Source of the DNA: Polynucleobacter hirudinilacicola
GTDB lineage: Bacteria; Pseudomonadota; Gammaproteobacteria; Burkholderiales; Burkholderiaceae
NCBI RefSeq assembly: GCF_002192535.1
Contig: NZ_NAIA01000003.1
Location: 62,001-126,000 of the forward strand
DNA length: 64,000 nt
Direction: 5' to 3'
Both the position numbers and the translations under genes were made by a program. Under the pieces are notes generated by a model. The model worked only from the letters and a program-made list of their open reading frames with translations, made no database searches and was not told the DNA's origin. Positions 16,269-26,407 of the stretch are shown piece after piece. The first letter of the stretch is position 1. The number at the start of each line of letters is the position of its first letter.

Positions 16269-18065
16269 CTAGAGCTGTTGATAGTAATCTCGTATCTTCT
16301 TAGCCATGAGCACACGACGCTCCGCTAAGAATGCAGGGTAGTCACTTAGGTTGCCTGATAAGGCCATGTCAATTGGAATGCAGTTTTCTTTAAAGTTTTG
16401 CAGTAAGTCAGCCTTCTCCTGAATGCCGCCAAATATTGGATTTCCTGATTCACACTGGGCAAGAGCCTGGGCAAAATATTCAGAAGGGTTCTTATCTCCG
16501 ATTTTGATATTAATCTCTTGCTGAGTTAAGGCATAGTTAGCTACTTGGTTATATTCGGCGCGCGAATTACCTTTACCTTTAAGGAAGTTTTTGGGGAAGA
16601 TATGGTGAATATCTCCTTGGTGAACCAACAATTCAGTAGCTTTAATATCTTTAGAGAATAAGCCCCTATCACCCAATTTAGACTGAGCAGCCCAATAGAC
16701 ATGTAAAGAAGGTCGGCTATTTGAGGAGGTATTGAGATCCTGGACAAGCCCAACATCCCAAAAGGCTGACGAAAGCTCTGCAGCCTCAACTTGAGCAAGG
16801 ATTTCATCAAATGGTCGTGAATGTATCTGTCGTATATCAAAGTCCATACTGGACTCTGGTGAGCTAGAGTATCTACCAGTAAGAAGGCTCATAACAAACC
16901 ATCTTCTAACCCAAGATTCAATTCTTGGGTCATTGCCATATTGTGCCTTTAACCTCAGATAAAGCACATAAGCAAAATTAAGAGCACCTGCAGAACGGAT
17001 TAAAGTGTTTGTTACAAATCCCGCTGATTTAATAATCATGAGGATCCGCTGAAAATGGGTTTGGTTTACAAAATCCATTACCCCAGCAGTTAGCTTCTTA
17101 TAGCTATCTTCTTCAATCTCGCGCTCATAGGTACGAGTCTCAAAGTTTCTACCTGAGAGCAATCCAACTAAATCAGCAATCTTGCCGCGCGGGAATTGAC
17201 TCATGAAGGCTACACGAAGAAGATCGCTATAACTAGGATCGTATAAGTCTTCGTTATCCTGCTTTAACCACTTAATAGCTTGCCAATATGGCGTTGCCAC
17301 AAACTCTCTATCGTTTTCTTCAATTTGCGCGGCAAATTCAGGTGCCCTAGCAAGATGGCAAAAGTAATCTATTGCCTTGCGCAATACATTGCCACCAAGA
17401 TCCTCATTAGCGGCTATCTTAGACATTGCAAAGTCTGCCTGAGAAAGAACTACGCCTTTGGAGTTAATTCGGATAAAAATCTCAGTAACAGTTTCAATAT
17501 CTAAATCACCGGCTAGTTCAATCATGCCAATTTGCTTTTTAGTAACGCCTTTTAGAAGCTCAATTCTGTCCTCTATTAGATCGGCATCTACTCCTGGATT
17601 TGCCTCGCAATAATCCTTAACTAACTTGCTTACACGCAATTCCCCGGTCACGATTGGGCAAACGTCAGGAAACCAAGAGGAATCTCGCTCAATAGCTGGG
17701 TTAGATACTTCAAATCTCTCCTCAACCGGATGAAAGGCTATCTTGATATTTACAGATTTATATTCCTTGTTGATAACCCGCTGACCTAGTAAGGCTGCTG
17801 TCAAAGCTGTAACCCGCTGCTGGCCATCAATTAATATCTTTTTACCCTCAGATAGGGTGCCGTCCTTAAGTTTTACCGTTGGATTCTTCCAGGCAATGAT
17901 GTAGCCAACAGGGTAGCCTTGATACAAGCTGTCTAATAAGTCCCTTACCTGAGTGGCATCCCAAACAAATGGTCGCTGTATTTCCGGAATAGCAATCTCG
18001 CCTGATTTAACCCAAGCAAGCAGAGTTTCGATCAAATGCTGATTAACTGAGTATTTTTGAGACAT
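16269..18065 (-). CDS. DUF262 domain protein with C-terminal HNH-like (DUF1524-type) motif, GmrSD-like
   Basis: [79 protein letters not shown]. Confidence 0.82.
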
Positions 18066-18088: not shown

Positions 18089-21000
18089 TTAAGCAACTGC
18101 TCTGAGTCTTACTTCATTAATGGATGCAAACAACTGCTCTACTTTTGCAGATGAAAAGATGCTTTCAGGTCCCGTAGGAGTAATATCTACAAAAGGACTT
18201 TGGTATAGTCGGTCATCGTCCATGGCGCCATTTTTTGTCAATTCGTCAACAATCAAAGTGACAAATTCAATCTGCTTCGAGGTTGCTGAAGCATCCGTCA
18301 GAAATGCATTCATAGCTTCAGTAGCTGCCACCCGATCCAGACCTATTAGTGAACGCACAAAAAGTCCAAGCCCATGGGCATCTTCTTTTGCGCGTTTAAT
18401 TAGAGTGGCATCCCCACTAGCTTGCTCAAGCAATATCGCCTCAAGCTCTTCTAAATCAGTGGAAGTGATCGGTAAATTACGCTTTAATTTGTTAATGGCT
18501 AACTTATTTTCATGCTGACGCAAGAAATCCCTAGCCTTGGCCTTAAATTTCTCATAATTTAATCCACCAACACTGATCGGGAGGTCAAATTCAACACCTT
18601 CGCCAATAGAATCTCCAAAATTAGTAAAGACAATATTGCGCTTAGATTTCTCAATTAATTTGACTAAGCTTCGCAGCTGAATGCGAACATGCTCCAGCAT
18701 ACCTACTGTTACATCCTGCCACCATTCATTAGAATTAATGCTTTGAATTAATTCAATTTGCTTTCTAATTGCTGGAATACTCTCTTGCAGCTCCAATGCA
18801 GCCGCAATAGCTCTTACATAACCTTGCAATCGCTCAAACCCCTTATCAGCCCTTAGAACGCATAGTTGTAATTTGAGAATCGCCAGGTCGAAACGCTTCG
18901 CTTCCTCCTCCGTATCAATCTTTTTAGAGGGTAGGCTAGCTAACTCGGTAGCAGCTTCAGCGGCATCTCCACTGCTAAGCGCTTTCCAGCTTAAGGCATT
19001 GCTAAATTTCTCAACAAACTTACGCTTGGGCCGAACTATGATGTTCTCAAGTGTCATATTAGCCACAAGCTCATGCAAGTAGTTGGCTGTGTAATCCCTC
19101 AGCTCAATTTCTTCTTTGGTGGACTTATCTTTTAGACCCTCTAAGGTTGTTAATACCTCTATACGGTTTTTAAATAACTGTGTATCAAGGCTTTCACCAC
19201 TAGAGCCATCAGATGCGTCAGGATTTTCTTTGAAATATTCTAGATTTTGACAATAGTCCAAAATATAGAAAAATTTCTTATCCTCATTAGGCGCAAATAA
19301 ATCCTTGCAAAGCCTTGTACCACGACCAATCATCTGCCAAAACTTAGTTTTACTTCGCACACGCTTAAAGAAAACAAGATTAAGCACTTCAGGAACATCT
19401 ATGCCTGTATCAAGCATATCCACACTAATTGCAATATGAGGTGCCTTATCTTTATTAGAGAAATCATCAATCAAACTTTGCGCATATTCAGTCTGATAAG
19501 TAATTACTCTTGCCATCTCACCCTTGTATTGAGGGTAGTTAATATTAAATCGCTCGGCAATAAATTCTGCATGTAGATTATTCTTGGCAAAGATTATGGT
19601 CTTACCAATTCTGTCGCCACTGGCAACTTTCTGCCCTCTAATCATCATATGCCTGATAACCTGATCAACAGTATCCTGATTAAATAACCACTGATTCATG
19701 GCTGCCGGGTCTACCTCTTCAGGCGGCCCATTCTCACCCCACTCCAATTCATCCCACTGCTGCTTTTCATCTTCACTTAGCTCGTCATACTTAATACCTT
19801 CTCGAGGAAAATGAACTGGAACCGAGATCGCCCTAGGCGGCACCAGGTATCCCGCATCAATAGCGTCATCAAGACTGTAGGCATATGTAGGTACGCCATT
19901 TTGCATTTGGAAGAGGTTATAAGTATTTCTATCCACCTCATCTTTAGGTGTAGCAGTAAGGCCAACTAAATAACTATCGAAGTAACTAAAAATAGCGCCG
20001 TATTTACTATAAATACTACGATGGGCCTCATCAACAATGATCAAATCAAAATAGCCAATACCAAACTTCTTAACAGTACTGTCTGTGCTATTAATTTGAT
20101 TAAGCATTGTTTGATAAGTGCTGACATAGACCCGACCTTCTACATCAGACCCGTCCAACAGATTCACCACTTGAACATTTGGCAGATGCTTTCCAAACTC
20201 TCTACTTGCCTGCTTCACCAAGGAAACCCTATCGGCCAGAAATAAAACTCGCTTTACCCAACCAGCGCGCATTAGCATATCAACTAAGGCAATTACGGTC
20301 CTAGTTTTACCGCTACCAGTAGCCATCACAACTAAGCTGCGTCTTTGATTGTGCTGTTCAATCGCTTCAGTAATGCTGCGAATAGCTTGATGCTGATAGC
20401 TGCGCTCAACAATTGCCTTATCAATCTCAACAGTGGCCAAAGGATGGCGACTACTTCGACGCTGCATTAAAAGCTCTAACTCATCCTTTTTATGGAATCC
20501 CTGCACAGGTCTTGGAGACGCATTTTTATCATCCCAAAACCAATGCTCATATCCATTTGTGTAGTAAATAACTGGTCGACGTCCAAATTGAGCCTCAAGA
20601 CAATCTGCATAGAGCTTTGCTTGCTGCTGCCCTACCCGCGCATCACGTCTCGTACGCTTAGCTTCAACAACTGCTAAAGGCTTCCCATCATTACCCCACA
20701 ATACGTAATCTACAAACCCTATACCCTGATTATTAGGCATTCCAGAGACTTCGTATTCCCTATCCTCTTTTTTGTCTAATGACCATCCAGCCTCATTAAG
20801 CAGCAAGTCAATGAAGTAATCTCGTGTTTGCTCTTCGTTGTAGTTATGTAGGTCAGGAGTCTTAGAATTGATGACCTTAGCTTTAACAAACTCAATTCTT
20901 AGCGTATCAAGCTCTTGCTTAATAGCATCTTTTTCGGCCTGCTCTAATCGTAATTTCTCTTCGGCGGCCTGCAATTGACTAGCAGTAATGACATCTTGTT

Positions 21001-21430
21001 TTTTGGCAGCAGGAATTAGTTTTTCATCAAATTGCAAAGAAGGATCTGGCCTAGCCTTATCCCCATAAGTTCTAGCCAGCCAGTAGGCTATATGGAACAG
21101 CTCCTGTATAGCCGTATAAGCCTCAGCTTGCTTGGCAGCCTTACCATGCGCGGCACGATTACCAATTGAAATAATCACCGTGGCTTTAGTAAAGATGTTT
21201 TCACCAGCATTACTCCTAAAGCAAGGATCATGCACCCGGGCGCCTAAACTTGGTTCATAGCTTTTATATGCCGGATCATATCTATAGAGCCAATCTACAA
21301 TCTGCTCCAATGTCATGCGCGAATACCAACATGCCGCACGAGCATCTGAATTTAAATAACTCTCAGCCTTGGTGGCGCTATCGCATATAGAAAAAAATTC
21401 TTTTTGCAGGAAAGTAAAATTACTCATCAA
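18089..21430 (-). CDS. hsdR: Type I restriction endonuclease subunit R
   Basis: RSLVVMATGSGKTRTVIALVDML, DEAHRSIYSKYGAIF, GLTATPKDEVDRNTY, QMIGRGTRLCKDLF; N-terminal nuclease PLAVVEAKRTRRDARVGQQQAKLYAD. Confidence 0.95.
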   Translation of the reverse strand: MMSNFTFLQKEFFSICDSATKAESYLNSDARAACWYSRMTLEQIVDWLYRYDPAYKSYEPSLGARVHDPCFRSNAGENIFTKATVIISIGNRAAHGKAAKQAEAYTAIQELFHIAYWLARTYGDKARPDPSLQFDEKLIPAAKKQDVITASQLQAAEEKLRLEQAEKDAIKQELDTLRIEFVKAKVINSKTPDLHNYNEEQTRDYFIDLLLNEAGWSLDKKEDREYEVSGMPNNQGIGFVDYVLWGNDGKPLAVVEAKRTRRDARVGQQQAKLYADCLEAQFGRRPVIYYTNGYEHWFWDDKNASPRPVQGFHKKDELELLMQRRSSRHPLATVEIDKAIVERSYQHQAIRSITEAIEQHNQRRSLVVMATGSGKTRTVIALVDMLMRAGWVKRVLFLADRVSLVKQASREFGKHLPNVQVVNLLDGSDVEGRVYVSTYQTMLNQINSTDSTVKKFGIGYFDLIIVDEAHRSIYSKYGAIFSYFDSYLVGLTATPKDEVDRNTYNLFQMQNGVPTYAYSLDDAIDAGYLVPPRAISVPVHFPREGIKYDELSEDEKQQWDELEWGENGPPEEVDPAAMNQWLFNQDTVDQVIRHMMIRGQKVASGDRIGKTIIFAKNNLHAEFIAERFNINYPQYKGEMARVITYQTEYAQSLIDDFSNKDKAPHIAISVDMLDTGIDVPEVLNLVFFKRVRSKTKFWQMIGRGTRLCKDLFAPNEDKKFFYILDYCQNLEYFKENPDASDGSSGESLDTQLFKNRIEVLTTLEGLKDKSTKEEIELRDYTANYLHELVANMTLENIIVRPKRKFVEKFSNALSWKALSSGDAAEAATELASLPSKKIDTEEEAKRFDLAILKLQLCVLRADKGFERLQGYVRAIAAALELQESIPAIRKQIELIQSINSNEWWQDVTVGMLEHVRIQLRSLVKLIEKSKRNIVFTNFGDSIGEGVEFDLPISVGGLNYEKFKAKARDFLRQHENKLAINKLKRNLPITSTDLEELEAILLEQASGDATLIKRAKEDAHGLGLFVRSLIGLDRVAATEAMNAFLTDASATSKQIEFVTLIVDELTKNGAMDDDRLYQSPFVDITPTGPESIFSSAKVEQLFASINEVRLRAVA

Positions 21431-22566
21431 TTTCCATAACTTTCTAGCTGCACCATCTTGATTAATTTAGAGGTTAAATGCAAATAGGAATCAAAGCTGG
21501 CATTAGCTGCCTCATATTTTGCAATAAAATTATCATAAGCCAACTGTTGCGATAAGGGTGGCATTAAAACCTCGAATCCACCTAAAAGTTGAAGATTTAA
21601 GTTTTCCTGGTTACCCCCTCTACCTAAAGCCCTTAAGTCCTCATAAGCAAATTTTAATTGCCAAAACATAAAGTTTGATGAGAATGTCTCATTAGGCCTA
21701 ATTACACCGCAAGCTTGATTAGTTGCTGCAGCGGCGCTCAATAAACCAACGCGCCCCCTGGTTTGACCTTGTCCATACATTGCAACAAGAATAGAGTTCT
21801 CAGGATTAATCTTGCCGCCAATACTCTGAAGACCTTTTTTGGATAATTTCTCTTGCGAATCGTATATTTTTTTTCCAACTAACTCAGTAGTTTTAATCCA
21901 CAATATATCGCCACCCATTAAATCGCTCTCTGATCTGCTCGGAGTAGAGCCACTAGATATGCTTGCAATCTTGCTAAGAGGCAACTTGTCAAGCTTGAGA
22001 TTATTAGATTTTCTATCTCCAAACATTTCTATAAAAACACTCTTAGCCAACTCTCCCAGCTTTTTGATGGCTAATTCACGATTTCTATATATGACTTCTG
22101 CACTATCTAAAATTTTTGCAATGCGAATTTGCTCACTTATATCCGGAACCTCAATTTCAATTGAATTAATTTTTTCATTTGTTATTGCTTTTTGCGTAGC
22201 TCCACTACACAGTGAATTTTTTTTAATTTGAAAAGGAATAGAATTTAATAAATGGTAGAGAAATCTTGGAAAGATGATATCCAAATTCGGTCTGATAACA
22301 GCAAAACCTGTTGAGTAGATAAATTTCTCTTTTTTCTCAGTAATCAAACAAATCTTTTTTGTATCCTGCATTCTTGCAAAACATAGATCGTTTCTTTTAA
22401 CTATCAAATCAGCCCTGGAAGGACGATCTTTATAGGTAACATATTCGCCTGAGATATTTTCTCGATCGTCTAGGCTTCCAGTTGCTACATATAATTTTTC
22501 ACCCTCAAAAGATGGCACTCTTTCGGCAATTAATGGCGCAACTTCAGTTAATTTATATTGCATCAC
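21427..22566 (-). CDS. hsdS: Type I R-M specificity subunit
   Basis: Two target-recognition-like halves with ISEQIRIAKILDSAE spacer; ATGA overlaps with hsdR and hsdM. Confidence 0.9.
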   Translation of the reverse strand: MMQYKLTEVAPLIAERVPSFEGEKLYVATGSLDDRENISGEYVTYKDRPSRADLIVKRNDLCFARMQDTKKICLITEKKEKFIYSTGFAVIRPNLDIIFPRFLYHLLNSIPFQIKKNSLCSGATQKAITNEKINSIEIEVPDISEQIRIAKILDSAEVIYRNRELAIKKLGELAKSVFIEMFGDRKSNNLKLDKLPLSKIASISSGSTPSRSESDLMGGDILWIKTTELVGKKIYDSQEKLSKKGLQSIGGKINPENSILVAMYGQGQTRGRVGLLSAAAATNQACGVIRPNETFSSNFMFWQLKFAYEDLRALGRGGNQENLNLQLLGGFEVLMPPLSQQLAYDNFIAKYEAANASFDSYLHLTSKLIKMVQLESYGN

Positions 22567-24101
22567 TTAACAATTCCCTCAAGCTCACTTAAATTTTGCT
22601 GTATTTCTGATTCAAGTTGTTTTAGCTCAGCGATCAACCTTATAGGGGGGATATGCTCAATAGCCTGGTGCACCACCTCTTTATATCGATTCAAACTGAG
22701 GTCATAGTCATTGGCAATTATGTCCGCCTTGCTTACTACAAAACTTTGAGCAGTTTTATTATTACTTCGCTCTTTACCCTCACGCTCCTTCCACCTACTT
22801 ACAACATCAGGTAAGTTGTTTTTTAAATGCTCGTCCTCTGATAATTGCTTAAGTGGAGAAGATCCTAACTTTTCTAAATCGAGAAGAGGTTGCCGCTTTG
22901 CATCTAAACTCCATCCATCAGCCAGAATGTCATAAAACCAAACCGAGTCTGTACCGCCGCTATTTGTTTTGGTAAACAGTAAAATTGCCGTGCTAACACC
23001 AGCGTAAGGCATAAAAACACCCCCAGGAAGCGAAATAACCCCTTCCAATTTTTGCTCTTCAACTAACATTCGTCTGATTTGTTTATGCGCCTTGCTATTT
23101 CCGAAAAGTACCCCATCTGGAATGATGACTGCAGCACGACCACCTGGTTTCAGAAGCTTCAAGAAGAGCGCCAAAAATAAAAGCTCCGTCTTCTTAGTAT
23201 TAACAATTGCAAGGAGATCTTTTGCAGCATTTGCAATATTAATGCTGCCAGCAAAAGGTGGATTTGCAAGAATAAGGCTATATTTTTCTTCCTCAACTGC
23301 AAAATCTTGACTTAAGGAATCACGATAAGTGATAACTGGATTCTCAACACCATGTAGAAGCATATTCATACTACCAATACGTAACATAGTGTTATCAAAA
23401 TCATAGCCATGAAACATACTGTTATGGAAGTGCTCTCTACTTGTCGCATCAGTTAACACTTCTGGATGAGTCTCACGCATATACTCACTTGCATTAACAA
23501 GGAATCCACATGTTCCACTAGCTGGATCACAAATCGTGTCTTTGGCTGTCGGGGCGGTTAACTCCACCATCAATCTAATAATATGTCTTGGTGTTCTGAA
23601 TTGGCCATTCTGTCCAGCACTAGCTAATTTACCCAACATATATTCATACAAATCACCCTTTGTATCTCGATCATCCATAGGGATTTGGTCAAGTAAGTCA
23701 ATTGCAGTAGAAAGCAACATGGGCGTTGGAATAGTGAAACGAGCACCCTGCATTTGTTTGCTGTAGGTGCTCCCATCTCCGCCTATATCTCGCAAAAATG
23801 GGAAAACATGATCACTCATTACATTGAACATTTCTTGAGGGGCCATATTCTTCAGTCGGCTCCAACGCATATCTTCATATTTACAACTCTTACTATCAGC
23901 GCCTTCCGGGAAAAACCTTTTTGCTAGAGGCTTGCCTAACCTTGCGCTCCTGTTCTCCTCCAAAGTCTGTAAATCATCCAGCCTGCGTAAAAATAGCAAG
24001 TATGTAATTTGCTCAATAATTTCCAGGGGGTTTGAAATGCCACCTGACCAGAAACTATCCCAAACCTTATCAACCTGACTGCGTAATTCACCTGTTAGCA
24101 T
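22563..24101 (-). CDS. hsdM: Type I R-M DNA methyltransferase subunit
   Basis: Motif I TICDPASGTCGFLV and motif IV LILANPPFAGS intact. Confidence 0.95.
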   Translation of the reverse strand: MLTGELRSQVDKVWDSFWSGGISNPLEIIEQITYLLFLRRLDDLQTLEENRSARLGKPLAKRFFPEGADSKSCKYEDMRWSRLKNMAPQEMFNVMSDHVFPFLRDIGGDGSTYSKQMQGARFTIPTPMLLSTAIDLLDQIPMDDRDTKGDLYEYMLGKLASAGQNGQFRTPRHIIRLMVELTAPTAKDTICDPASGTCGFLVNASEYMRETHPEVLTDATSREHFHNSMFHGYDFDNTMLRIGSMNMLLHGVENPVITYRDSLSQDFAVEEEKYSLILANPPFAGSINIANAAKDLLAIVNTKKTELLFLALFLKLLKPGGRAAVIIPDGVLFGNSKAHKQIRRMLVEEQKLEGVISLPGGVFMPYAGVSTAILLFTKTNSGGTDSVWFYDILADGWSLDAKRQPLLDLEKLGSSPLKQLSEDEHLKNNLPDVVSRWKEREGKERSNNKTAQSFVVSKADIIANDYDLSLNRYKEVVHQAIEHIPPIRLIAELKQLESEIQQNLSELEGIVK

Positions 24102-24128: not shown

Positions 24129-25910
24129 CTAGAGTTTCCAAATATTTTTAGATAGCGATTCCTGCTCTACTCTAATTTTCTGGATTCCCCTTTCCAATCG
24201 CTCTTCAGAATCAACTATTTCTCGTGATTTAGTATCCTGATCCGAAGTAGATTGCACCACCTCTAGTTTCATCAACTCTCTGAGCTGTATTAACTTAATA
24301 GTTGCTCCGGACACAATTCCAGCAAGTAATTCCTGCCCCATGGGTGACCTGAGTTGTACAAATAACGATTGCGCGCAATATTCAGGATGGACCCTTAAAA
24401 CTATGGCGGATTGCCCTGCAACCCAGCCGCCATTTCCAGGGCCAGGAACATCTGCCGGGACGATTCCAATCTTTCCAACGCTACCCTTAACTATTAAGAC
24501 AATATCTAGAGGTCTTAGAAAACAATCTTCGTAGCGTTTGGCTAAATTTTCATCTACAGAGATGGTTTTACCCTTAGGGGCGATATACCCAAATTGAGAT
24601 AAATCGGCCGCCCCTATTTCCATTACAGCTATTGGCTTGCTTTCTATGGACCCCAGGGGGATTGCACGCACAGTTCGCGCAATGTCACCCAATTGAATTT
24701 TGCGTAATCCACTAAGTTGTTTTTCAAGCCTCTTTCTACTATCAGATACAACATATCGGTCTACCTGTAGCTGGGCATCGTTACTTAATACAACTTGGTT
24801 TGAAACAATTGAACAATTTGTAGACTCTTTATTAGACTTAATTAGCTCTAATAACCCATCAATATTTCTCAGATCGTTTCTAGTCCTAGCAACTCCTACA
24901 TAAAATTCTGGAGAATCTGCATTTATGAACTTGACTGAATTTAGTCCACCTTTTGGATTTATAACCAAAATCGTAAACGCTATATTAGTAAGACTTAGCA
25001 AACCATTTGGCATGGCAATAACAGCCTCAATCATTCCCTTTTCTACCAAATCCTTACGTAACTCTTTTTCGTAACCGTGGCTAAAAAGCAGGCTATTTTG
25101 AACAGCAATTACTAGCTTTGATTTGGTTTGCGACATAGCATGGCGCACTGCCAAGACTGAGCCTATAGAGGTTCTCTCTGGAAACCTATTAAATAGATCC
25201 CTTCTAATTTCATCGGCTGGGTATTTCATTCCAAATGGAGGAAAAGCTACCGTAATGTCAAACAATCTAGGTTTGCCACCTTCTATAGCTGTGGGCTGAA
25301 GAATGGGATTGCTTATAGATACTTCAAACTCATTGGTGGAAAGAAGACTTACCAATGCTGGAATTGAAGAATGCAGAATCGATTCATAGTAAACATCCCT
25401 AGATTTAATGGCCGCTCTCGAAGCAAGTTGAGCAAAGCTGCTATCCCAGGGCGTGTAAACAGAATCACTTGATCTAATATCCGCTATTGCTGACATTAGA
25501 TCCGCAACTTCGCCAGGCATATTGAGATAACCCCCGACAGGAGATATAAATCTTTCTTCAGCTAAATTTAGTACATCGACATTTTCTAAAACCCCAGTTG
25601 CGCTCAGACGGCTAACTACTTCTAGGGCATCTCTTAGGGCGTAAGGATTAACTCCGATCACCGATGGGATATTGCTGAAAGCCTTAAACATCAAACCACC
25701 ACTGGCTGAAAGGGCCTGAAATACGTTTAAAACCTTTTCTGGATATTTTATGTATTCAGCACTAAAAGCCAACTCCTTTGCAATCCTATTTTTTCTGGAT
25801 AATTTTTCCCAGGCCAGCAACTGGAGGGCCAACTCCAAAGATTTATCTCGATCTAAACCGGTACCTCTAACTGAATCTACTATTTGATATATCGCTCTAT
25901 TAGTCATCAT
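24129..25910 (-). CDS. HsdM-like protein with degenerate catalytic motifs fused to an HsdS-like target recognition domain
   Basis: HsdM-like block TVAFPPFGMKYP...NSLLFSHGYEKELRKDLVEKGMIEAVIAMPNGLLSLTNIAFTILVINPKG; C-terminal TRD-like IQLGDIARTVRAIPLGSI...GQSAIVLRVHPEYCAQSLFVQLRSPMGQELLAGIVSGATIKLIQLRELMKLEVV. Confidence 0.75.
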   Translation of the reverse strand: MMTNRAIYQIVDSVRGTGLDRDKSLELALQLLAWEKLSRKNRIAKELAFSAEYIKYPEKVLNVFQALSASGGLMFKAFSNIPSVIGVNPYALRDALEVVSRLSATGVLENVDVLNLAEERFISPVGGYLNMPGEVADLMSAIADIRSSDSVYTPWDSSFAQLASRAAIKSRDVYYESILHSSIPALVSLLSTNEFEVSISNPILQPTAIEGGKPRLFDITVAFPPFGMKYPADEIRRDLFNRFPERTSIGSVLAVRHAMSQTKSKLVIAVQNSLLFSHGYEKELRKDLVEKGMIEAVIAMPNGLLSLTNIAFTILVINPKGGLNSVKFINADSPEFYVGVARTRNDLRNIDGLLELIKSNKESTNCSIVSNQVVLSNDAQLQVDRYVVSDSRKRLEKQLSGLRKIQLGDIARTVRAIPLGSIESKPIAVMEIGAADLSQFGYIAPKGKTISVDENLAKRYEDCFLRPLDIVLIVKGSVGKIGIVPADVPGPGNGGWVAGQSAIVLRVHPEYCAQSLFVQLRSPMGQELLAGIVSGATIKLIQLRELMKLEVVQSTSDQDTKSREIVDSEERLERGIQKIRVEQESLSKNIWKL

Positions 25911-25919
25911 CGTTCTCTA

Positions 25920-26186
25920 TTAATTAGGTTTATAGCTATTGCAGTTATATGTCGTAATAAGGACATCATCCTGAGCAACAACGGTCACGCCACCCTTATC
26001 TAAGATCTTCTTAACTAGACGCTCCTGCTTCTTAAGATCATTCAGCAGCTCCAAAGCCTGTCTTTTTCCAAGAACATACTTATCCTGCTCTACGAACCCA
26101 TAGTTAAGTACAAAATCGACCATATCCCCTGTAACTCCCCGCTGGGACATTCTTTGCATTGCATGTTGCGTTGTTTGCATTCTCAC
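25920..26186 (-). CDS. DUF4258 domain small protein
   Basis: QTTQHAMQRMSQRGVTGDMVDFVLNYG...GVTVVAQDDVLITTY. Confidence 0.75.
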   Translation of the reverse strand: MRMQTTQHAMQRMSQRGVTGDMVDFVLNYGFVEQDKYVLGKRQALELLNDLKKQERLVKKILDKGGVTVVAQDDVLITTYNCNSYKPN

Positions 26187-26407
26187 ACCCCCGTTGTTGA
26201 TGTAAGAACTTTAACAAAGTTTTCCGATAATTGCAAATAGTATTAGTTACTTTTTAATATTTATTGTTACTAATTTTATTAACCCATATAAAACAATGAC
26301 TTATAAAAAGGTATTAATTTACCAAAAATACAACATACGAATCAATCAAGGTGTTGACGGGGTAATTTTGCATAAAAGGTATAGAAATTAACCCAATAGT
26401 TATCTGC

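Follow-up and report, generated by a model that had tools for sequence, protein, structure and literature searches.

A conserved methylase-derived protein with degenerate catalytic motifs is a candidate autoregulator of type I restriction-modification operons

The control of type I restriction-modification (R-M) operons is poorly known. In the window (the whole stretch of 64,000 nucleotides of Polynucleobacter hirudinilacicola DNA analysed here), the genes of a type I R-M system are preceded by a gene for a single-chain protein (P0001, hereinafter M/S) that resembles a methylase subunit joined to a specificity subunit and whose methyltransferase motifs look broken, which raises the question of what such a protein does beside an intact enzyme. 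The features discussed are collected in Table 1.

Table 1 Features of the M/S locus in the window and regions of the M/S protein
Feature	Position	Strand	Remarks
HsdR	18089..21430	-	4-bp overlap with HsdS
HsdS specificity subunit	21427..22566	-	two Methylase_S stretches; 4-bp overlap with HsdM
Genuine HsdM	22563..24101	-	512 aa; DPASGTCG and NPPF intact; 27 bp after M/S
M/S-like protein P0001	24129..25910	-	593 aa; ATG start; intact ORF; boundaries exact
P0001 N-terminal helical region	residues 1-118
P0001 degenerate HsdM-like domain	residues ~119-390
P0001 single HsdS-like TRD	residues ~401-550
P0001 C-terminal helix	residues 558-592
DUF4258 gene (BECR/RelE-ParE fold family)	25920..26180	-	86 aa; 9 bp before M/S; PF14076
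Bipartite palindrome AGTA-ACTAA-TACT	26239..26251	-	starts 71 bp before DUF4258 ATG; putative operator
Second RGTA-N6-TACY site, GGTAAATTAATACC	26310..26323	-	starts 143 bp before DUF4258 ATG

The architecture read by eye in the initial annotation, an HsdM core followed in one chain by an HsdS-like recognition domain (TRD), is borne out by matches to Pfam N6_Mtase (E 7.8e-20) and PADLOC Specificity_I (residues ~431-575, E 2.3e-8), the latter marking a TRD of the HsdS kind. The Pfam scan gives no Methylase_S match in P0001 itself and finds this family in the Bacillota relatives of P0001; no second TRD is present in the chain, which thus lacks the tandem TRDs of HsdS. The N6_Mtase match is restricted to profile positions 104-306, leaving the motif-I half of P0001 unrecognised, as compared with positions 2-305 matched in the neighbouring HsdM. 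Profile-profile alignment relates P0001 to HsdM with 99% probability (E 3.5e-18), and a sequence match to the HsdM of the solved structure 3lkd has an E-value of 1.5e-9. In the profile-profile alignment, SVYTPWD-SSF of P0001 stands where HsdM has TICDPAS-GTC, with no motif I pattern, and ITVAFPPFG stands where HsdM has LILANPPFA, outside the motif IV pattern [NDS]PP[FYW]. Both lesions reported earlier, the degeneration of DPASGTCG (SVYTPWDSS in its place) and the replacement of the NPPF Asn by Phe (AFPPF), are thereby confirmed, and the adjoining HsdM does keep both motifs, as had been stated. The motif X signature G-x-F-x-x-P is retained as GYLNMP. At 593 aa, with an HsdM-like domain and a TRD, P0001 does not have the small HTH or RptR fold of the known controllers, and Pfam and NCBIfam scans detected no HTH family in it.

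An AlphaFold2 model of P0001, built on an HsdM-rich alignment (P0001, its close relative, clostridial relatives and HsdM), has a pLDDT of 64 overall, mostly 70-96 in the M domain and below 50 in the TRD, where it is unreliable. The modelled M domain adopts the HsdM (gamma-class methyltransferase) fold, with Foldseek matches to 3lkd, 7vs4 and 2okc (E 1e-16 or below) and with the two-M PacII M1M2S complex among its closest folds; as the input alignment was rich in HsdM, the model is no arbiter of whether the SAM pocket survives.

Full-length relatives with 27-34% identity were found by tblastn against plasmids in Oscillatoria, Aromatoleum, Annamia, Geminocystis, Cyanobacterium, Aliivibrio and Sulfuricurvum. 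Others occur in Roseovarius, Roseomonas, Synechococcus, a Legionellaceae MAG (L069, 75%) and a genome of the same family as the window (G249), and on the Bacillota side in Lactococcus, L. amylovorus, Salimicrobium, Paenibacillus and clostridial contigs. The family is rare (one of 399 phylum genomes sampled), a single scan of genome contigs added one new locus, and an alignment of all eight relatives contains no stretch conserved enough to serve as a query.

Close homologues carrying NPPF/Y were looked for and not found: the motif IV Asn is absent from 18 of the 19 M/S proteins, from several phyla, in our motif table, which rules out AFPPF as a mere local mutation. The sole protein to keep the Asn is that of Salimicrobium (MNFPF), a distant relative, and the clostridial proteins, found later and outside this table, have also lost it (SVPIFG/SVPNFG). 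By the same table, DPxxGxxG and NPPF are kept in all 10 neighbouring genuine HsdM proteins, and NPP[FYW] is kept in 41 of 43 HsdM-like proteins from other genomes. It is nearly certain, judging from these motifs, that P0001 has lost catalysis. It is very improbable that M/S has methyltransferase activity with unusual motifs; the motif X Pro and the motif IV PPF persist, the Bacillota proteins retain motif-I-like glycines and Salimicrobium its Asn, but motif I and the catalytic Asn are both gone in P0001 and throughout its clade. The glycine remnants in Bacillota are consistent with a stepwise decay, in which catalysis would have been lost first and the SAM motif later.

Between the window and L069, dN/dS is 0.089 over 508 codons, with synonymous sites near saturation, and 0.047 within the TRD. 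We therefore give next to no credence to a decaying pseudogene copy of hsdM-hsdS, for which the degenerate motifs might speak, since it is contradicted by this selection test (dN/dS 0.09) and at odds with the intact frames and with a full-length architecture conserved across phyla. In the core clade the TRD is more conserved (29.7% identity) than the M part (20-25%), the reverse of genuine systems, in which HsdM (28%) is more conserved than the HsdS halves (18%). The M/S TRDs are alike across phyla and unlike the TRDs of the HsdS in their own locus, and a specificity shared by the M/S TRD and the adjacent HsdS TRDs was rejected (cognate mean z of 3.1 versus 4.1 for non-cognate pairs). These comparisons suggest that the recognition domain is under maintenance without diversification and, as it is retained and unlike the adjacent TRDs, that it probably recognises a different target from the adjacent R-M enzyme. 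With the catalytic Asn lost family-wide and the TRD strongly constrained, the initial view of P0001 as a non-catalytic DNA-recognition pseudo-enzyme appears well founded.

The minus strand of the window reads ZorA-B-C-D, a gap, DUF4258, M/S, HsdM, HsdS, HsdR and DUF262, and the complete type I R-M system that had been claimed to adjoin M/S is indeed present, with HsdM, HsdS and HsdR directly downstream. A type I R-M operon adjoins most M/S relatives, and M/S is usually its leading gene; it lies immediately 5' of co-directional R-M genes in 11 loci from Pseudomonadota, Campylobacterota and Bacillota (the window, L033, L038, L073, L075, L083, L085, L092 and the clostridial L147, L151 and L152). 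An HsdR gene is upstream of M/S in Oscillatoria, M/S comes after HsdR in G249, and HsdM/HsdS are divergent from M/S in Cyanobacterium. No type I genes were seen near M/S in Annamia, Geminocystis, Aliivibrio, Synechococcus, Paenibacillus or L087/L088, so that R-M control cannot be the sole role of these relatives.

The direct co-encoding with HsdM, HsdS and HsdR also fits a non-catalytic structural subunit of the R-M enzyme, M1-M2-S-like or in a hemi-complex with HsdM, that would alter specificity or activity. The HsdM fold and C-terminal helix, which the model predicts to be retained, and the PacII two-M complex among the closest folds of that model point the same way. We nevertheless consider such a subunit unlikely, because the M/S TRD does not resemble the adjacent HsdS TRDs, M/S TRDs staying similar where HsdS TRDs differ, and because the promoter palindrome described below and the R-M-free loci would be left unexplained.

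Upstream of M/S the window holds a complete type I Zorya system (ZorA-D, 33568-26408, minus strand), whose ZorC and ZorD are divergent, with scores far below the NCBIfam equivalog cut-offs. The suggestion that M/S is a regulator or sensor for Zorya is not supported: Zorya lies beside M/S only in the window and L069, where the sequences differ and the orientation is opposite. A role as component or partner of type I Zorya was also rejected, as there is no consistent co-occurrence and elsewhere M/S is accompanied by type I R-M or by neither system; the adjacency looks incidental. At the other end of the operon, a DUF262/GmrSD_N gene (16269-18065, minus strand) directly follows HsdR, and a DUF262 gene likewise comes after the R-M genes that adjoin M/S in Aromatoleum (L033:14984-16855). 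In three clostridial operons (L147:2618-5038, L151:2230-4647 and L152:2621-5038), M/S is followed by an ADP-ribosylglycohydrolase-like N-terminal half, recognised by eye, fused to HsdM, and then by a second HsdM, HsdS genes and a tyrosine recombinase.

The promoter of the window operon contains the putative operator listed in Table 1, whose half-sites are identical in L069 (AGTAATTAATACT); the second site is not conserved there. The two promoters share 65% ungapped identity over 145 bp; this is not taken as proof, because shuffled sequence scored about as high when gaps were allowed. Comparable sites lie upstream of other M/S operons: AGTA-CGTCC-TACT within a repeat with 22-bp arms in Oscillatoria, AGTA-CGCCG-TACC and GGTA-CGGCG-TACC flanking a TTGACT hexamer in Aromatoleum, AGTA-TTTCGAA-TACT in Lactococcus, AGTA-ATCGAAT-TACT in Salimicrobium and TTTGGTA-N6-TACCAAA at the clostridial loci. 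RGTA-N4..8-TACY occurs within 220 bp upstream of the operon, often twice, in 13 of 23 M/S loci, a set that includes near relatives (window/L069; L175, L176, L178 and L177), versus 2 of 75 ordinary HsdM promoters. The other 10 loci (Sulfuricurvum, Roseovarius, Roseomonas, Synechococcus, Annamia, Aliivibrio, Paenibacillus and L087-L089) lack it.

When the 220 bp upstream were compared with the rest of the same loci, AGTA ranked first and GGTA third among all 256 four-base half-sites. AGTA was found in 7 of 19 loci against 0.38 expected with spacers of 3-9 (p 4e-8 before 256-fold correction) and 0.22 expected with spacers of 4-8 (p 1e-9 before the same correction), p-values that the correction protects only in part because palindrome form and spacer range were chosen with the sequences already seen. 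None of 400 dinucleotide shuffles reached the maximum statistic with spacers of 4-8. An independent check came from L177, fetched afterwards, in which GGTA-N6-TACC precedes the leading gene of the operon, a SymE-like ORF that differs from the first gene of the other clostridial loci. A near-identical Lactococcus plasmid has the same half-sites, with substitutions inside both spacers.

DUF4258 is unlikely to be the palindrome binder: the site is absent upstream of all nine DUF4258 genes without M/S (150-bp windows, slightly wider pattern), and M/S operons that have no DUF4258 can carry it. What the palindrome-bearing operons have in common is M/S, which, as an R-M controller would, stands at the head of an R-M operon behind a palindromic operator-like site.

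Type I targets have the geometry of such a palindrome, split by a spacer of 5-8 bp, and a self-pairing chain with one conserved TRD would recognise a site of this kind. Given this geometry and the presence of M/S in the palindrome operons, the simplest model is a dead M/S acting as autoregulator, and we put about even confidence in M/S being non-catalytic and autoregulating the type I R-M operon. On this model, the conserved single-chain family (HsdM fold plus one TRD) would have lost its DNA-methyltransferase chemistry and would serve type I R-M operons as sequence-specific, autoregulating DNA-binding proteins. Two M/S chains would put two TRDs on RGTA-N5..8-TACY in the operon promoter, the dimer occupying its site in the manner of a type I methylase on a bipartite target but leaving it unmethylated, and binding would set expression of the operon (DUF4258, M/S, HsdM, HsdS and HsdR in the window). 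We infer M/S dimerisation, binding of the palindrome and an effect by repression or dosage control, as well as regulation of the R-M operon itself, from sequence. The weak step concerns DUF4258, whose product, probably of RelE/ParE fold, would be toxin-like or co-regulatory and subject to the same control. The model is incomplete, as loci without R-M or without the palindrome exist, and the palindrome could instead be bound by another protein (a host factor or HsdM/HsdS). The initial suggestion of a regulator for the flanking R-M system gains support from the position of M/S ahead of type I operons and from the enriched operator-like palindrome.

The operator-like sites could also serve a decoy sensor, in which M/S would mimic a type I methylase for Ocr, ArdA or incoming DNA and its removal from the putative operator would turn the operon on; a retained HsdM fold, as modelled, and the solved structures with Ocr or ArdA on type I methylase complexes (7eew, 7bst, 7bto and 2y7c) are in keeping with this reading, which we rate as distinctly unlikely. 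We hold it equally improbable that M/S is both repressor of an operon of R-M and toxin-like DUF4258 genes and infection sensor, putatively resting on RGTA-N-TACY until anti-restriction DNA mimics or sites on incoming DNA pull it off and R-M and DUF4258 come on.

How far DUF4258 belongs to the system bears on a further alternative. The window protein scores 25.2 bits against PF14076, marginally above the cut-off of 25; the ATG at 26180, which aligns with L069, is a better start than the GTG at 26186, and an AlphaFold model (P0002) is uninformative (pLDDT 45). A small DUF4258 gene stands ahead of M/S in most Gram-negative and cyanobacterial cases and in 8 of 13 core-clade loci (the window, L069, L032, L033, L038, L073, L075 and L076), and sampling found it in 2 of 369 class genomes. 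DUF4258 counts among 13 BECR-fold toxin families without known target (Gerdes 2025, PMC11980606). It is absent from the loci of the Bacillota M/S relatives, and the same type also heads other small operons without M/S, for example with a DUF3944 or LRAT-family gene, so that the proposal of a two-gene system with M/S at its core is only partly right: the adjacency in the core loci stands, and the exclusive pairing does not. Among these other operons, DUF4258 precedes a DUF3944 gene in L071 and an LRAT-family gene on Acinetobacter/Moraxella plasmids (L072, L077 and L078; the second gene is unannotated in L078), followed in L077 and L078 by a viperin-family gene. In L177, a SymE-like small ORF (531 onward, recognised by eye) lies ahead of the clostridial M/S and shares the promoter palindrome.

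The alternative is a toxin-antitoxin or guard module, with DUF4258 as a RelE/ParE-fold toxin and M/S as the DNA-binding antitoxin, the toxin being freed when R-M is lost or attacked. Autoregulation through a palindrome is usual antitoxin behaviour, and the membership of DUF4258 in the BECR-fold toxin families (PMC11980606), its adjacency to M/S in the 8 core loci and the SymE-like gene ahead of M/S in L177 all suit this reading. Bacillota M/S without DUF4258, and DUF4258 genes of the same type heading operons with unrelated second genes, speak against it, and we regard it as somewhat unlikely.

Compared with HsdM/N6_Mtase proteins, M/S shares the M-domain fold, motif X, PPF and co-encoding with type I R-M, but it lacks motif I and the catalytic Asn, is fused to a TRD and belongs to an operon that also holds a genuine HsdM. 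Like HsdS it has a Methylase_S-like domain followed by a C-terminal helix; unlike HsdS it has a single one, fused to the M domain and conserved across phyla rather than diverging. Its place at the head of an R-M operon behind a palindrome recalls type II C proteins and RptR, a newly described (2025) regulator of type I R-M operons (PMC12255303); these are small helical DNA-binders, whereas the candidate regulator here is a 593-aa methylase/specificity derivative. Autorepressing type II methylases act on their own gene via an N-terminal helix-turn-helix or through methylation (PMC3874152), and M/S would similarly be a methyltransferase-derived protein in control of its own promoter, although those are active enzymes and M/S is presumed dead and would bind through its TRD. 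We found no dead M/S chain described as a regulator in the open-access literature, and the RGTA-N-TACY palindrome upstream of M/S operons is new here. RefSeq plasmid records name the same proteins 'type I restriction-modification system subunit M/S' or 'N-6 DNA methylase', names that imply DNA methylation and carry neither the catalytic loss nor the putative operator. M/S genes annotated as methylases probably methylate nothing and would mislead methylome annotation. If the autoregulator model is right, the enzyme's methylase and recognition parts supplied its controller, in which catalysis disappeared and the recognition domain stayed frozen rather than diversifying, and this suggests that a dead part of a restriction enzyme became the switch controlling a live one. 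A defined 13-bp site is now available, and M/S proteins are candidate decoys for anti-restriction proteins.

In a quick tree, 12 core M/S members group together (SH-aLRT 99) and the Bacillota proteins form a separate group (94) inside HsdM, so that a single M/S clade was not recovered. The TRDs of the two groups resemble each other, so that one or two origins of M/S are both possible. Phage-borne spread was rejected, as 50,697 phage records yielded just two HsdM-like matches, both partial; matches in IMG/VR came from the window's own genome and clostridial contigs, and this database places the defence region of the window genome in a 32-kb viral contig (L068, L080 and L094; IMGVR_UViG_2590828818_000001).

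Several variants of the gene were observed. In Roseovarius (L073:9284-10986) and Roseomonas (L075:9244-11138), M/S is split into two overlapping genes, one for the N-terminal part and one for the methyltransferase-TRD part. In G643 (L090:9587-12175), an M/S of the Aromatoleum type has a truncated TRD and is fused in frame to HsdR sequence, apparently via a deletion. A 424-aa HsdM-like protein without TRD and with EPPM at motif IV adjoins a genuine HsdM in L014 (G126) and may represent a further lineage of degenerate M proteins. In two order-level relatives, a degenerate M/S-like gene (L087:8878-10524 and L088:9034-10683, minus strand) lies in a shared chromosomal context devoid of R-M genes, as if domesticated.
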